This document shows positions 25,001-36,631 of a DNA stretch of 36,631 bases, piece by piece. Both the position numbers and the translations under genes were made by a program. Source of the DNA: Thermoplasmatota archaeon (lineage in GTDB: Archaea > Thermoplasmatota > Thermoplasmata > Halarchaeoplasmatales > Halarchaeoplasmataceae). The notes beneath the pieces are model-generated. The model was not told where the DNA came from. It made no database searches and worked only from the letters and a program-made list of their open reading frames with translations. The stretch is taken from the NCBI GenBank assembly GCA_018334835.1, contig JAGXLF010000010.1:1-36631 (forward strand). The letters are read 5' to 3'. Position 1 is the stretch's first letter; every line of letters starts with the position of its first letter.

Positions 25001-25042
25001 TCTCTTCTTCTATAACCAAATAAAAGTAAATAGGTGTGTATG

Positions 25043-26689
25043 ATGACAGATATAAAGGCTCCTAGAGGATCAGAATTGACCTGTAAGGGTTGGAAACAAG
25101 AGGCGATGCTGAGACAGTTGAAAAATAATCTTGAGAACGCTGAAGACCCCGATAATCTGATAGTTTACGGAGGTTCCGGAAAAGCTGCGCGGAACTGGGA
25201 ATGTTATGATCAAATAGTTGAAAGCTTGAAAGAGTTGGAGAACGACGAGACCTTGCTGGTCCAAAGTGGAAAGCCTGTCGGAGTCTTCAAGACATATGAA
25301 AGATCACCTCGGGTATTGATCGCCAACTCCAATCTGGTCCCAAAATGGTCAAATTGGGATAAATTCTACGAGCTTGAGGATCTAGGTCTTATGATGTACG
25401 GACAGATGACCGCCGGGAGCTGGTGTTATATAGGAACACAAGGTATTATCCAGGGAACCTATGAGACTTTCGCTGCTGCGGCCCGAAAACATTACGATGG
25501 GGATTTAGAAGGTAAATTTTGCCTGAGTGGGGGACTTGGTGGTATGGGTGGTGCCCAGCCCCTCGCGATAAAGATGAACGGCGGAGTTGCTCTAGTAGTA
25601 GAGATAAATCCTGAGCGTGCAAAAAAGAGGTTGGATGCCGGTTACTGCGATGTCGTCCTTGAAGATCTAGATGAAGCACTGGAAGTCTGCAAAAATGCCA
25701 AAGAAGAAGGAGAAGCTAAAGCTGTAGGTTTGATCGGAAACACAGCCGAAACCCATCCTGAGATATTTGATAGAGGCATAAAACTAGATATGGTCACCGA
25801 TCAGACCAGCGCTCACGACGCTATGTCGTACTTCCCTAGAGGCATGACATTCCAAGAAGCTCTAGATCTTAAGGAATCCGATCCTGAAAAGTACAAGAAG
25901 AGAAGCATGAAGTCGATGAAACTGCACTGCAAAACTATGGTGAAGATGCAGAAAAAAGGTTCGATAGTTTTCGATTACGGCAACAATCTTAGAGGCCAGG
26001 CCTACGAGGCAGGCTTCGAAAACGCCTTCGAATATCCGGGTTTCGTCCCTGCTTACATTAGACCTATGTTCTGCGAGGGAAGAGGTCCCTTCAGGTGGAT
26101 AGCTCTATCCGGCGATCCAGAGGATATATTGAAGACCGATGAAGTGGTGAAAGAACTGTTTCCAGATAACGAACAGTTGGTTAATTGGATCGACCTAGCA
26201 GAGGAAAACTTGCCTTGGGAAGGTTTGCCTGCAAGAGTTTGTTGGCTCGGTTACGGAGAAAGAGAGAGGTTTGCTAAGCGGATAAACGAGATGGTCAAGA
26301 GCGGAGAGTTAAAGGCGCCTATCTCTATAACAAGGGATCACCTTGATACGGGAAGTGTAGCAAGTCCGAATAGAGAGACCGAAAACATGAAAGACGGAAG
26401 TGATGCGGTTGCTGATTGGCCCTTGTTGAACGCTCTCCTGAACACGAGTGCAGGTGCTGACAGCATCTCAATACATAACGGCGGCGGTGTCGGTATAGGC
26501 CTCTCTACACATGCTGGTATGGTCGTTGTTGCGGACGGCACAAAAGAATCTAAAGAAAACATAAAGAGGGTCTTCAAAACAGACCCTGGGATAGGTATTG
26601 TGAGACATGCCGATGCGGGTTACGAAAAAGCTAAGAATTTTGCAAGTGAAAACCAGATCAAGATTCCGATGATGGAAAAAGACGAGTGA
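25043..26689 (+). CDS. hutU: Urocanate hydratase
   Basis: Urocanase converts urocanate to 4-imidazolone-5-propionate, the second step of histidine degradation, using tightly bound NAD+ as an electrophile. Family blocks are plain: the N-terminal [41 protein letters not shown], the NAD-binding [18 protein letters not shown], the [14 protein letters not shown] segment bearing the essential cysteine, and [21 protein letters not shown]. From ATG 25043 the protein is 549 aa, close to bacterial enzymes. Start codons GTG 25034 and ATG 25040 are alternatives; TAGGTG at 25031-25036 fits 25043 best. Histidase and imidazolonepropionase are not adjacent. The partner FTCD lies 2.6 kb downstream on the other strand. 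Confidence 0.96.
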
Positions 26690-29254: not shown

Positions 29255-31096
29255 TCAGTCCGGATCTAACCTATTCTTAGCCTTTTCTATCACTATAGAC
29301 TTTTTTTCTCTGTACTCTTCTTGAAGACTTTCACACTCTTCGAGCATCTCTTCTACGAACTTCTCGTCCTCTATATCGCCGAGATTGATTTTCACGTTGG
29401 CTGTACCGCCTAAGACACCAGAATATGCCATCTGGGCCGCTACGAGAGCATCACTTAAGGCTTCCTTTTTTCCATGTTCCGCAGCTTTCTCGGCAAGATC
29501 TATGACTTTTGCAGAGGTTTTCGCTGTCTCCATGGGTACCTCAACGGCATGTTTAAGACCTTCCTGCATCGCTTCTTTCCTCTTCTTGCGCTCTTTCTCT
29601 GTCGATTTAGGCATTTTTTTAGCTTCCATATACTTGTCGAAAGCGTTGGTGTCTTCATCCACAGCTCTTAAAAGATCATCTTTCAATTCCTGTGCCTCTT
29701 CCGCCATGGGCATCAATATCGGATCTACGTCAGCGGTGTTTCTTCCCCCAGTACTCAGGTTAGAGACCATCGAGGAAAGTGCAGCTCCTATCGAGCCAGA
29801 TAAGGCGGCTATACTTCCACCGCCAGGTGTAGAAGAATCTCTAGAGACCTCATTGACAAAATCTTCGACATCCATATCAACAAGAGCGTCTTCCGGTTTC
29901 ATCGGACCTCCAATCAACTTTTCATCAGGGTCGAATTCAGCAACATCTCTTAGACCAAGAGATTGAATAGCGGTCTCTATTATGTCTTCTTCAGGTATCC
30001 CTTTGGCTTGATTCATCTTATCAAGATAGTACTTCCCAGTTCTCAACAGTGCTTCGTAAGGTGCTAAACCTACGATTTCGCTACCTGTTACTCTCACGCC
30101 CATCTTTCTAGCCCGGTCTCTAGCAAATTCGTATACATCGTCCAGGCTAGTTTCTTTAAAATTAGTCAGATTGATAGAGACTTGAGCCCGTTCGTATTCA
30201 TCTACATACCAACCTATCGATTTACAGTGGTCGAATTTTCCTCTCTGTTTGACCGCCTTCCCTTCTAAATCATCGACATCGTAATCGTACTCCTTTTCTA
30301 GGAACTCCTGCAGGTCATAGCCGTGTTCATCTGCGGTATGATCCTTCACCTCTTGGAAAGAATCACCTACAAACTCACATTCACCACAGGGGAACTCATT
30401 CTCTCCATATCGGACTATTTTACCTTTCCAGTAGTGCTGATCAGGACTGTTCTCTCTCTTGGCTCTCCCCCTTCTCCTCATCTCTAACGCTATGTCCCAG
30501 GCGATCTTTTTGTTCTTAGTATTGAGATTTATGTTGTAAGCTATCAGGAATTCTCTAGCGCCGATGACCGTAGCGCCGGTCCTTTTGACTCTATCGTTCC
30601 ACTCCGCGGGTCCGTAATCTGGCTCCCACTCCGGATCGACCAGCTTCTCATCGAGACCTTCGTACTGACCGCTTCTTATGGATGCGAGATTTTCTCTTTT
30701 TGGTTCAGACGCGGCTTCCTCGTAAAGGTAAACAGGTATGTCCAATTCTTCACCCACTCTTTCTCCTAATTCCTTAGCTATTTGGACGCAGTCGGCCATA
30801 GTAGTTCCTTTGACTGGAACGAACGGGCAGACATCGGTCGCTCCCATTCTAGGATGGCTTCCCTCGTGTTGGCTCATATCAATAAGTTCTGAGGCCTTTT
30901 TGATAGCATTGAACGCCCCTTCTTTGACTCCATCCGGCGGTCCGACAAATGTTACCACTGTCCTATTAGTGTCCTCTCCCATATCTACATCTTTGACCTC
31001 TACTTTATCTACTGCCTTGATCTCATCAGTTATTTCATCTATCACGCTTTCGTCCCGCCCTTCTGAGAAATTAGGTACGCATTCTACAAGCTTCAT
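29255..31096 (-). CDS. ftcD: Glutamate formimidoyltransferase / formimidoyl-THF cyclodeaminase fusion with a C2H2 zinc-finger insert
   Basis: FTCD moves the formimino group of N-formimino-glutamate to tetrahydrofolate and then deaminates it to methenyl-THF, ending histidine degradation at glutamate. Residues 1-210 and 284-400 form the transferase (CVPNFSEGRD, the HEGSHPRMGATD motif with the catalytic His near 81, GIGWY-like SIGWYVDEYERAQVSINLTN). About 410-613 is the all-helical cyclodeaminase (SSTPGGGSIAALSG). Between the two transferase subdomains sits an unusual acidic insert with C237-x2-C240-x12-H253-x4-H258, a textbook C2H2 finger. ATG 31096 is preferred over TTG 31108, since a TATA-like ATATATTT is at leaderless distance. 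Confidence 0.93.
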   Translation of the reverse strand: MKLVECVPNFSEGRDESVIDEITDEIKAVDKVEVKDVDMGEDTNRTVVTFVGPPDGVKEGAFNAIKKASELIDMSQHEGSHPRMGATDVCPFVPVKGTTMADCVQIAKELGERVGEELDIPVYLYEEAASEPKRENLASIRSGQYEGLDEKLVDPEWEPDYGPAEWNDRVKRTGATVIGAREFLIAYNINLNTKNKKIAWDIALEMRRRGRAKRENSPDQHYWKGKIVRYGENEFPCGECEFVGDSFQEVKDHTADEHGYDLQEFLEKEYDYDVDDLEGKAVKQRGKFDHCKSIGWYVDEYERAQVSINLTNFKETSLDDVYEFARDRARKMGVRVTGSEIVGLAPYEALLRTGKYYLDKMNQAKGIPEEDIIETAIQSLGLRDVAEFDPDEKLIGGPMKPEDALVDMDVEDFVNEVSRDSSTPGGGSIAALSGSIGAALSSMVSNLSTGGRNTADVDPILMPMAEEAQELKDDLLRAVDEDTNAFDKYMEAKKMPKSTEKERKKRKEAMQEGLKHAVEVPMETAKTSAKVIDLAEKAAEHGKKEALSDALVAAQMAYSGVLGGTANVKINLGDIEDEKFVEEMLEECESLQEEYREKKSIVIEKAKNRLDPD

Positions 31097-31172
31097 ATTA
31101 TCTACCAATCTCTATATCGAGAAATATATGGGAGATAAAAAGATTTGGGAGGGTGTTTTAATTTTTATAACT

Positions 31173-32029: not shown

Positions 32030-32071
32030 AGAAAACTATCAATGGATATGGCAATCAAAAAGAGGATAACA

Positions 32072-35000
32072 ATGAGATATAAAATAGTTGCTTTCACCCT
32101 TTGTCTACTCCTGCTCCTCAGCGGACTGTTAGTTGTGGCACAGGGACTAGAAAGGGACGATAGAGAAAAAGTAGTGACTGAAGATAAAATTGATGAGGAT
32201 CGGAGTGTCAAAGAGAACGTTGAAGAGACAATACCCGAAAGAGAACTTATACATGATTCCTATGAACCCAACTTTGAAGATGTGTCTATAGATGAAAGAT
32301 GGGGACGCACAAATGAGCGAGTCAACTTAGAAGGGGAAATCGAAAACAAACAAGCACATCAACCATATAACCATTTCCACAGTGAATCAACACTAACAGG
32401 GGAAATCTCACGAGAGGATCAAAATAGTGTCCCATGGAATGATCCAAATCTAGCAGAGGATTATGAGGAGAGAGAGCCTATCCGGATCAACAATAACACT
32501 GACTTTGCCGATAAAGCTTCGGAAGAAAATTGGTCGGGTAATGGAACATTGGAAGATCCGTATATAATCGAGGAATATGAGATAGATGGAAGTGGTCCCG
32601 GTTACTCAATATACATCGGAAATGTAACTGATCACTTTGAAGTGAGTGAATGCCATCTACACAATACTAGCGGCGGACAAGGAGAATACTCCATGAACAG
32701 TGGTGTTCATCTTTTTAACACCTCTAACGGTCATATTAGTGACAACTTTCTATCGAACAATACCTTCATGGGTATCCATCTCGAGCACTCTCATAATAAT
32801 ACTATATCTAACAATACTGCATATTCAAACGAGGGCCATCAAATCCTCCTTGAGGATTCAGATGAAAATAAGGTCATAAACAATGATATCTATGGGGAGA
32901 ACCTATCTTTGAACCGGTCTAGTTCTCACGAAGACATAGAATACTCTAAAGACAGCGTTTTGGTTCAAGTAGAATCACCCGATAAAGATATGATAAGGAG
33001 TATGGGTCAGGAGAGAGCGCTGAAACTCCAAACGGATCATATAGCGGATGCCGTCAAGGGAAGCACCTCGCGCACATATCCTGCATTCGATATGGCTGAA
33101 ATCAGCCTCAATGACGGTATGGATGTGAAGAGTGCAGTGGAATTCTTGACTAGCAGGGATGAAGTGATCACTGCTGAGCCAAATTATCTGATGGATTTCC
33201 AGAAAACACCGAACGACCCCGGATATGATTCACTCTGGGGTATGCCGATGATCGATACGCCTAGTGCATGGGATATAACCACAGGTAGTGAAGAGGTCGT
33301 GGTTGCTGTGATAGATACGGGTATAGACTACAATCATCCTGACCTGAAAGACAATATGTGGACTAGTGAGGAAGGATACCACGGTTACAATGCTGTTAAC
33401 GATTCTTATGATCCGATGGATGACTTAGGTCACGGAACTCACGTAGCTGGAACGATCGGCGCTGTCGGCGACAACGGCCTCGGCGTTGTGGGAGTGAACT
33501 GGAACGTAAGTCTGATGGGAGTGAAAATAGGAGATGCTGGGGGACTTACTATCGGAAATGCGATAGCCGGTCTTGAATACGTTTTAGAAAAGAAAAAGGA
33601 AGGCGAGAATATCGTTGCAACTTCCAACAGCTGGGGTGGTGGAGTAGAAAGTGAACTACTGTATGAAGCGATCGAACAACATCAGAAAGAAGATATTTCA
33701 TTTGTAGCCGCTGCGGGAAATGCTGGAACAGATACTGATCAGAACCCATTCTATCCGGCGAACTATGATCTGACAAATATTATCTCCGTCGCAGCAACTG
33801 ACCAAAACGATGAACTAGCATATTTCTCAAATTACGGAAGGCGGAGTGTACACGTAGGCGCACCAGGAGTTGATATAAACAGCACTATACCGGGTGGCGA
33901 GTATGTTCATGCAAGAGGTACCTCGATGGCTGCCCCTCACGTATCTGGATTGGTAGCTCTATTGGCCTCGCATAATTCCTCTTACGATCATAACCAGCTT
34001 AAGAACGCGATATTATCATCGGCTGATCAGCCTGAAGATCTTCAGAATCGAACCTTGACTGATGGACGGATCAATGCGTATCAAGCTTTAGAGCTCTCGC
34101 CAGATCCGGACAATATAAGATTTTGGGTTCATCGACCGACCTTAGAGGCTGAATGGAGAGAAGAAACACCCATATCTATCTCTTTAAACGACGGTGTGAA
34201 TCCTATCATTGAAGCAAATGTGACCGTTGATTTCAGCACAAGAGACGACACCGTCTATCTCGAAGACGACGGCTCTCAAGGCGACCAAATTGACGACGGT
34301 TATTATACTGGTAAATGGGTACCTCAAAATTTAGGAGAAATCGATCTGACCATCACTGCTGTTTTGGACGGAGAGTGGGAACTTACCAAGAATATAACAA
34401 CAGAGGTGCAAGGAGACTCTGGAATCGCACTTGTAGATTCAAAAAGTAACAGTTTGAGCAATAATGAAATAAATGATAACTACTATGGTATCTCTCTTTA
34501 CTCCTCTGAATCCAATGAATTTATGAACAGTACTGTTTTGAATAACACCCACACAGGTGTTCGACTTTATAAGTCAAGAGATAACGAGATGATAGATCAT
34601 ACAATTTCAAACAATCGAAATGGTATTTTATTAGAGGAGTCTGATGGCAACTCAGTATCTTACGCTAACATCTCAGACAATTCTATAGGCGTCATACTAC
34701 AATTCTCTGACAACAATACTTTCTCAAACAACAATCTATCTAACAACAATGCCGGTTTGATCATCGAAAACTCTATAGAGAATCAAGTTATCGAGAACGA
34801 AATCTCTAATCAACGATTCTACAATTTGGTTCTCTTTCAATCTACCAGCAATAGAATAGTTAACAATAACCTATCTAACCAATTTTTCGGTCTTCTCATC
34901 CAGAACTCTAATGAAAATCGCGTAAAAGAGAACAAGATCTCCAATAACCTATATGGTATGGCTCTCTTTCAATCGGACAATAACAGAGTTTTGAAAAACA

Positions 35001-36631
35001 ATGTATCTAACAATGATCTCGGGATATTCCATCTAGAAGCCAGTTATAACAAACTCGAAGAGAACAACATATCGAACAATATGATCGGGATATATATCGG
35101 AAACTCCAAAAATGTAGAGTTAGTCGGCAATATCATGATTGATGGGAGTATCTACATGGAGGGAACTTCCTTGGAACATTGGACCACCCACTCGATCGAT
35201 ACATCAAATACAGTGAATGGTGATCCAGTTTACTACTGGAAGAACGAAAGTGGGGGTACAGTTCCCCAAAATGCTGGACAGATTATATTGGCTAACTGCG
35301 ACGAAGTGGAAGTGAAGGAGCAGGAAATCAGCGGTGGTAGCGTTGGGATTCTATTGGGCTTTTCTTCTAATAACAAACTTATGGAAAACAGCGTTACAAA
35401 CTCAAATTGGGAAGGTATCACCCTCTTCGAATCAGATGGTAATTTACTGGAGAACAACCTCGCATCTGAAAACGAATTCCCAGGTGTCTTCATGTTCCAA
35501 TCTGATGATAACATACTCGCTAATAACACCGCATCCGATAATAACTACGGGATCATAACCTTTGGGTCCAGAAACAATACATTCAATCAAAATACCGTGA
35601 GCTCTAATCAGAGGGAGGGAATCACTCTTTCCGAATCAGATGAAAATGTATTAAAAAGTAACGCTGCTTCTGAAAATGGATACCCTGGTTTCTATCTTTA
35701 TGAATCTAATAGTAATAAATTTACTAACAATACCGGATCGAACAATGATTATGGAGTACTGATATACCGATCTGATAATAATGAATTTATCAATAATACA
35801 GTAAGTTCTAACAATGTAGAGGGTATCACTATTCGGGAATCAAATGGAAACATATTGAAGAATAATATCGCATCTGAAAATGAGTACCCCGGTATCTTTC
35901 TACTTAATTCTGATGACAACAACTTCATAAAAAATACTGTGGGACAGAATGATTTCGGTTTCTATTTGGGTCTCTCTAATAACAATACTTTCACGAAGAA
36001 TACAATTCTAGATAACGGTGAGGTAGGTATTTATATCGAGGATTCAAGAGAAAATTTGATCTTTCGGAACAAAATCATAGAAAATGAGAACCAGGCATGG
36101 GACAATGGAGATAATGAGTGGGATGCAGGTGACCCTGCGAAAGGAGGAGAAGGTGGAAATTACTGGTCGGACTATGACGGTAAAGATAGAGGCGATGGGG
36201 TCGGAGACAAACCTTACAATATCGAAGGCGATGAAAACAGGGATAATTACCCATGGATGAATCAAGAGATGATGAAACAATATGAACTTACAATCAACTT
36301 AGAGGGTGAAGGAATAGTAGAAGTCGATGGAGAAAAATTGGATTCAGAAAAAGGGTATACATATAAGGAAGGTACTGAAGTCGAGCTTGAAGCAACCGGG
36401 GATAAAGGATGGAAATTTGAAGAATGGACAGGAGACTACGAAAGTATTGAAGAAAACATAACTATTACAATAGAGGATGATGTGGAATTAACGGCGAACT
36501 TTCAAGAAGAAGATAAAGATATACTTGATCGTATAAGAAACATAATAGATCTACCTGATTTACCAAACAGACCAGACGGGAGAGAGATACCCGGATTCTC
36601 TTTTTTCCTACTAATACTTGGAGCAGTCTTA
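32072..36631 (+). CDS. Secreted subtilisin embedded in a NosD beta-helix protein, PGF-CTERM-like end (cut by window)
   Basis: An uninterrupted frame runs 1520 codons to the window end. Residues 1-24 are a signal peptide (MRYKIVAFTLCLLLLLSG). About 25-135 is an acidic linker. About 140-278 starts a NosD-type right-handed beta-helix (GTLEDPYIIEEYEIDG header, then SNNT repeats). About 294-375 is an inhibitor-I9-like propeptide (DSVLVQVESP to AEPNYLMDF). About 385-665 is an S8 subtilisin with its catalytic set intact: D415 (VIDTGID), H454 (GHGTHVAG), N550 (AAGNAG) and S618 (GTSMAAPHVSG). A beta-sandwich covers about 675-780. About 783-1343 returns to NosD repeats, roughly two dozen, including the SNTVNGDPVYYWKN block. 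An InlB-like repeat (WKFEEWTGDY) covers about 1405-1480. PGF (1507-1509) begins a hydrophobic tail that the window cuts. It should be exported and probably anchored by an archaeosortase. Confidence 0.9.
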   Translation, partial: MRYKIVAFTLCLLLLLSGLLVVAQGLERDDREKVVTEDKIDEDRSVKENVEETIPERELIHDSYEPNFEDVSIDERWGRTNERVNLEGEIENKQAHQPYNHFHSESTLTGEISREDQNSVPWNDPNLAEDYEEREPIRINNNTDFADKASEENWSGNGTLEDPYIIEEYEIDGSGPGYSIYIGNVTDHFEVSECHLHNTSGGQGEYSMNSGVHLFNTSNGHISDNFLSNNTFMGIHLEHSHNNTISNNTAYSNEGHQILLEDSDENKVINNDIYGENLSLNRSSSHEDIEYSKDSVLVQVESPDKDMIRSMGQERALKLQTDHIADAVKGSTSRTYPAFDMAEISLNDGMDVKSAVEFLTSRDEVITAEPNYLMDFQKTPNDPGYDSLWGMPMIDTPSAWDITTGSEEVVVAVIDTGIDYNHPDLKDNMWTSEEGYHGYNAVNDSYDPMDDLGHGTHVAGTIGAVGDNGLGVVGVNWNVSLMGVKIGDAGGLTIGNAIAGLEYVLEKKKEGENIVATSNSWGGGVESELLYEAIEQHQKEDISFVAAAGNAGTDTDQNPFYPANYDLTNIISVAATDQNDELAYFSNYGRRSVHVGAPGVDINSTIPGGEYVHARGTSMAAPHVSGLVALLASHNSSYDHNQLKNAILSSADQPEDLQNRTLTDGRINAYQALELSPDPDNIRFWVHRPTLEAEWREETPISISLNDGVNPIIEANVTVDFSTRDDTVYLEDDGSQGDQIDDGYYTGKWVPQNLGEIDLTITAVLDGEWELTKNITTEVQGDSGIALVDSKSNSLSNNEINDNYYGISLYSSESNEFMNSTVLNNTHTGVRLYKSRDNEMIDHTISNNRNGILLEESDGNSVSYANISDNSIGVILQFSDNNTFSNNNLSNNNAGLIIENSIENQVIENEISNQRFYNLVLFQSTSNRIVNNNLSNQFFGLLIQNSNENRVKENKISNNLYGMALFQSDNNRVLKNNVSNNDLGIFHLEASYNKLEENNISNNMIGIYIGNSKNVELVGNIMIDGSIYMEGTSLEHWTTHSIDTSNTVNGDPVYYWKNESGGTVPQNAGQIILANCDEVEVKEQEISGGSVGILLGFSSNNKLMENSVTNSNWEGITLFESDGNLLENNLASENEFPGVFMFQSDDNILANNTASDNNYGIITFGSRNNTFNQNTVSSNQREGITLSESDENVLKSNAASENGYPGFYLYESNSNKFTNNTGSNNDYGVLIYRSDNNEFINNTVSSNNVEGITIRESNGNILKNNIASENEYPGIFLLNSDDNNFIKNTVGQNDFGFYLGLSNNNTFTKNTILDNGEVGIYIEDSRENLIFRNKIIENENQAWDNGDNEWDAGDPAKGGEGGNYWSDYDGKDRGDGVGDKPYNIEGDENRDNYPWMNQEMMKQYELTINLEGEGIVEVDGEKLDSEKGYTYKEGTEVELEATGDKGWKFEEWTGDYESIEENITITIEDDVELTANFQEEDKDILDRIRNIIDLPDLPNRPDGREIPGFSFFLLILGAVL
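34417..36100 (+). repeat. Array of degenerate NosD-type coding repeats
   Basis: About two dozen units of roughly 22-24 codons carry the pattern S-N-N-N-x-x-x-N-N-x-x-S-N-N-x-x-G-I-x-L. They are visible at DNA level as recurring tctaacaat and ggtatc words. A shorter array of the same kind occurs upstream at about 32600-32905, before the protease domain. The copies are diverged, so they are old rather than recently amplified. Confidence 0.8.

Follow-up and report, generated by a model that had tools for sequence, protein, structure and literature searches.

Fusions of a subtilisin (S8) domain with NosD beta-helix repeats are already known, and the one from Methanosarcina acetivorans (NP_616940.1), tabulated in a 2008 survey of serine proteases (PMC2605481), places both in one archaeal secreted protein, although with the NosD part only C-terminal to the protease. 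Autotransporters, among them the subtilase Ssp, also have proteases on a beta-helix; in both Ssp and the SPATEs a three-stranded beta-helix carries the protease, which in Ssp sits at the top of a helix of only 248 residues and in the SPATEs protrudes from the side of the stalk (PMC9977779). In these proteins, however, which belong to bacterial type V secretion, the protease lies ahead of the helix and does not interrupt it. In archaea, a stalk-bound subtilisin in the form of a separate subunit has been known since the 1990s. In Staphylothermus marinus, the surface stalk tetrabrachion bears STABLE, an archaeal protease of the subtilisin family for which a role in supplying peptide fermentation has been proposed (PMC5744192), but STABLE is a separate polypeptide on a coiled-coil stalk, with no insertion into a beta-helix. 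Neither the M. acetivorans fusion nor the autotransporters nor STABLE have a protease and its propeptide between the coils of a rod.

The protein described here is a conserved S8/NosD combination in which the inserted arrangement, and not the fusion as such, is new. The reading towards which we lean is that of a secreted, probably surface-tethered S8 protease, whose cassette of propeptide, S8 and Ig-like domain sits in a turn between successive coils of one N-capped, right-handed beta-helix. Protease and propeptide would thus lie inside the rod and be kept there across an archaeal family, whereas the known examples carry the protease outside. If this is true, activation of the enzyme and cleavage of the stalk would be a single event, and adjacent coils of a beta-helix would tolerate about 500 residues of inserted domain between them, providing a concrete and testable example of a solenoid with a domain inserted into it, and also of the way in which uncultured archaea may digest proteins at their surface.

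The locus and the domain layout of the protein

The window, that is, the whole stretch of 36,631 nucleotides analysed, is the entire contig C114 of a metagenome-type draft genome (1.7 Mb, 84% complete, 114 contigs), and its GatD/GatE, diphthamide synthesis and CDC48 genes identify it as archaeal. On the plus strand, an open reading frame at 32042-36631 runs from an ATG, without internal stops, to the end of the contig, where it is still open and its 3' end is missing, giving 1530 residues. The first-pass annotation had given 32488 as the start of its feature, which falls inside this frame at about residue 149; the protein does exist as an open reading frame, which begins at 32042.

The chain opens with a putative signal peptide region (residues 1-35, 32042..32146), suggested by its hydrophobic run IVAFTLCLLLLLSGLLVV, the real start being perhaps Met11, and continues with an acidic linker with no Pfam match (residues 36-140, 32147..32461). 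A NosD N-cap header follows (residues 141-221, 32462..32704), with GNGTLEDPYIIEEYEID at residue 166, and then three complete NosD coils (residues 222-284, 32705..32893), the last of which ends after strand 3 in the AF2 secondary structure. The propeptide (residues 300-387, 32939..33202) and the S8 catalytic domain (residues 388-690, 33203..34111) come next, together with an Ig-like beta domain (residues 691-790, 34112..34411) which is conserved along with the S8 cassette. A second NosD segment, found by both Pfam and AF2, occupies residues ~793-1400 (34418..36241); it has no N-cap, and its first element is strand 1 of a coil. A divergent InlB B-repeat (Flg_new_2, PF18998; residues 1437-1489, 36350..36508) is also matched in Pfam, and the start of a hydrophobic C-terminal tail, IPGFSFFLLILGAVL (36587..36631), is seen in the last 15 residues, as IPGF and a hydrophobic run reaching the contig end.

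In profile searches, the query protein scored 345.6 bits for NosD (PF05048) over six stretches and 308.7 bits for TIGR03804, both above cut-off, and its 291 bits for the Pfam Beta_helix model likewise pass. For the NosD copper chaperone subfamily (TIGR04247) it reached 189.6 bits against a cut-off of 300, and an identity as the copper maturation factor of nitrous oxide reductase was rejected on this ground, the likeness being to the repeat protein only. The NosD-protease-NosD architecture is therefore real. The NosD header and first repeats that the first-pass annotation had recognised ahead of the protease are present (coils up to about residue 284), and the repeats do resume behind it, for some 600 residues from about residue 793; its order of NosD, propeptide, S8 and NosD stands, although the Ig-like domain between S8 and the second helix had been missed.

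The protease and its propeptide

The complete S8 catalytic domain claimed in that annotation is borne out by a Peptidase_S8 match of 178.4 bits over residues 417-665 (cut-off 21.8) and by the presence of D425, H464, S628 and the oxyanion asparagine N560, which stand in columns and motifs that are invariant in an alignment of 14 family sequences. In a Foldseek search with the AF2 model, the nearest solved structure was deseasin MCP-01 (PDB 3vv3; 43-46% identity, TMt 0.86). Deseasin MCP-01 and thermitase are the closest solved catalytic domains, but both are free secreted proteases with no beta-helix.

The propeptide had been described as I9-like. Pfam scores it as a fervidolysin-type prodomain (PF22148, residues 331-381, with 21.5 bits just above the cut-off of 21) and not as PF05922/I9; nevertheless, in the model it folds and docks as it does in pro-Tk-subtilisin. 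In fact, the propeptide-S8 unit matched the unautoprocessed forms of that enzyme (2z2z/2e1p) with a TMt of 0.80-0.81 and an rmsd of ~3 A, from which we infer that the propeptide would occupy the usual inhibitory position. Pro-Tk-subtilisin and fervidolysin thus share both propeptide fold and docking with the query, although their propeptides are N-terminal and free, unlinked to any solenoid. Since the alignment with the chains of thermitase and of the AK.1 protease begins at residue 389, the cut is predicted near 387/388, and auto-removal of the propeptide should nick the rod at about this point. The earlier suggestion that propeptide removal would sever the N-terminal helix part from the remainder is accordingly supported as a predicted consequence of the model. 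That the enzyme is catalytically silent or never auto-processed, its subtilisin fold being a structural bulge, is very improbable, given that D, H, N, S and the surrounding motifs are invariant across the family and that the propeptide has been retained and is predicted to be docked.

Conservation of the arrangement

Homologues were searched for with residues 291-791 as query in the order, which comprises 16 genomes of a single family, and the NosD segments of the relatives were identified with Pfam and with phmmer searches that took entire NosD segments as queries. Full-length relatives were found at 45-66% identity, and the order NosD-propeptide-S8-Ig-NosD occurs in 13 proteins including the query, from 10 of the 16 genomes and five of the six genera. 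A fourteenth case (L176, genome G024), in which PKD domains come after this order, is from another family of the class, a lineage represented by two genomes only. Among 400 genomes of the class and 390 of the phylum, no other helix ahead of S8 was found in the long open reading frames read among matches at E<=1e-60; the survey covered matches of at least this strength, the shorter frames above the threshold being read in part. Four relatives from the phylum have S8 followed by NosD only.

A simple fusion or a misassembly had been named in the first-pass annotation as what would speak against an insertion. The draft is of metagenome type, in 114 contigs, and the gene reaches a contig end, as could be expected of an assembly chimera or a mis-called frame; nevertheless, the frame has no internal stops, and independent assemblies contain 13 more proteins with this order, one of them from a different family. 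Such an origin is thus hardly credible, and misassembly and simple fusion in particular are ruled out by the 14 proteins sharing this order. The other objection foreseen, homologues devoid of the N-terminal repeats, comes down to a single paralogue, which is nested inside the S8 clade of the family.

The length of helix ahead of the protease varies from ~130 to ~1000 residues. Short forms have the header and a few coils, some 130-150 residues ahead of the cassette, while the five long forms have ~900-1000 residues, with about 35 extra coils at the same place. One short form (L041, contig G006:C68, 4160-6874, plus strand) breaks off at residue 905, partway through the second helix and inside a 53-kb contig; this early stop marks a pseudogene, a frameshift or an assembly error. 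Moreover, the protein is absent from the four other species of the query's genus (G009-G012, 93-94% complete), and the query S8 domain is closest to those of genus g3, a distribution that points to loss of the gene or its transfer inside the family.

One solenoid or two

In all 14 proteins the helix is left after strand 3 of a coil, with the pattern N-x-[IL]-x-x-N-x-[IVLM], and re-entered at strand 1, with G-[IVLM]-x-[ILV], a few residues past the last Ig strand. In the AF2 model the N-terminal part ends at the strand pairs 137-139 and 142-144, and the C-terminal part starts with the strand 653-658 (model numbering). Among the 13 family members, no N-cap header was found other than that at the N-terminus, the second segment being uncapped, and in the G024 protein the cap is incomplete, the contig being cut at its start. 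By comparison, where NosD follows S8 in the four relatives from the phylum, the helix opens with a cap that is complete but of a different type (YTTIQDAI...GDTIYV).

The structure was predicted with AF2 for 770 residues. A first alignment depth of eight sequences modelled S8 poorly (pLDDT mostly 25-60 over 245-550), and hence the model built with 66 sequences was used. This model has a mean pLDDT of 92, the five models ranging from 90 to 92, and a pTM of 0.86. According to a simple bound, pTM would be at most ~0.84 if either flank were loosely placed, and therefore both flanks have a predicted position. The model places all its parts confidently, and the view in the first-pass annotation of an insertion into, and not beside, the solenoid gains support from the coil phase shared by all 14 proteins, the missing second cap, the conservation in the family and the AF2 placement.

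The main alternative is that the protease has two independent helices, one short and one long, on either side of it like beads on a string, and that the leader at the N-terminus is lost with the propeptide to leave S8, Ig-like domain and stalk. The linker at residues 285-299 is flexible and of low confidence (pLDDT below 50), so the N-terminal part could swing free; subtilisin propeptides are normally degraded, and one paralogue has no N-terminal helix. On the other hand, an N-cap is missing from the second helix and no C-cap is visible on the first, the phase of the coils is the same in 14 of 14 proteins, the pTM implies a defined position for both flanks, and the helix of ~1000 residues before the protease in some relatives would be costly as a leader to be discarded. 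We regard two separate helices as unlikely, albeit deserving of consideration. A different role for the N-terminal part, as a dedicated aid to folding or secretion (an extended pro-region) that keeps the protease latent until it reaches the cell surface and has no part in the stalk, is improbable. Among the short forms this part scores 102-165 bits end to end, above the ~64-72 bits for solo NosD proteins, which would be expected if its role were tied to the cassette; the long forms, however, have some 35 more coils at the same place, and the header is an ordinary NosD cap.

Origin of the S8 domain

In a maximum-likelihood tree, the S8 domains of the family form one clade (support 100/98), which groups with bacterial deseasin-like enzymes, apart from other S8 proteins of the phylum. 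Its acquisition from bacteria is therefore plausible. The four relatives with C-terminal NosD fall in another, strongly separated S8 clade, and S8 and NosD were therefore joined at least twice.

The paralogue from the query genome (L027, contig G000:C80, 1059-2987, plus strand) is 64% identical to the query over propeptide, S8 and Ig-like domain, has neither NosD segment nor a transmembrane helix, and ends 50 residues past the Ig-like domain. Because it is nested within the family clade, it is probably a free secreted derivative, for which loss of the NosD segments would be the simplest reading. One family member also has a second S8 protein, of bacterial type (L052, contig G005:C44, 74-6004, plus strand, at least 1977 residues), which groups with one planctomycete S8 on a long branch and is possibly a contamination or a recent transfer.

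Probable surface attachment

A strong C-terminal transmembrane helix is present in seven relatives, most of them with a cytoplasmic tail, and membrane tethering of the query protein is likely from the sequences of these relatives. Three long relatives of genus g3 (L049, L050 and L051) have no transmembrane helix, and end in a domain of GW(N/Q)-x-(I/L)-x-x-P repeats; their attachment to the cell is not explained by such a helix. Neither feature of the beta-helix autotransporters, a C-terminal beta-barrel translocator and a protease before the helix, was found, the helix being on both sides of the protease and the tails being transmembrane helices or soluble domains.

The first-pass annotation had seen a PGF-CTERM-like tail and pointed to an ArtA archaeosortase. 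An archaeosortase A gene is indeed present in the query genome (279 residues, contig G000:C67; TIGR04125, 143 bits against a cut-off of 75), and a search of the same genome with PGF-CTERM (PF18204) returned no match at E<=1. The query's own tail is cut by the contig end after 15 residues, too early to qualify as the tripartite PGF-CTERM signal, and the membrane segments of the relatives are ordinary transmembrane helices, so that ArtA anchoring is one possible mode of attachment. Two solo NosD proteins of the query genome, of 1898 residues (L054, 3822-9515, minus strand) and 2168 residues (L055, 5360-11863, plus strand), have the same header as the query and a C-terminal transmembrane helix with an acidic cytoplasmic tail, forming a family of large surface proteins built on a beta-helix.

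Proposed mechanism and function

If the cassette is inserted into one solenoid, as we favour, the precursor would be exported, the N-cap and the first coils would fold, and the propeptide would fold in turn and inhibit S8, which would then cleave its own chain near residue 387/388. As a covalent link connects the propeptide to the N-terminal coils, the self-cut would split the rod into two chains, one with cap, coils and propeptide and the other with S8, the Ig-like domain and the long stalk. The coil phase and the missing caps suggest that the two pieces remain stacked, so that the cap segment would most likely stay on the stalk through coil-coil pairing while the propeptide is degraded. What remains would be an active protease at the flank of a rod whose C-terminal hydrophobic segment keeps it at the membrane.

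A further-reaching version is tentative. The cassette would break a continuous beta-helix, activation would cut the rod, and the cap half, kept by stacking, would later be shed as a switch, a cue or an exposed sticky end, with the position of the cassette being evolutionarily mobile in whole-coil steps.

As regards function, the likely role would be the external digestion of proteins for an archaeon using peptides or amino acids, or else the processing of surface proteins. No conserved gene neighbourhood was found around the gene among its relatives, and the substrate is therefore only a guess. Near the gene, the window has a urocanase (hutU, 25034-26689) and a fused formiminotransferase-cyclodeaminase (FTCD, 29255-31108), which by their sequences would represent histidine degradation in an archaeon. 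M29 and M50 peptidase genes are also found in the window, and all four genes fit an amino-acid user.
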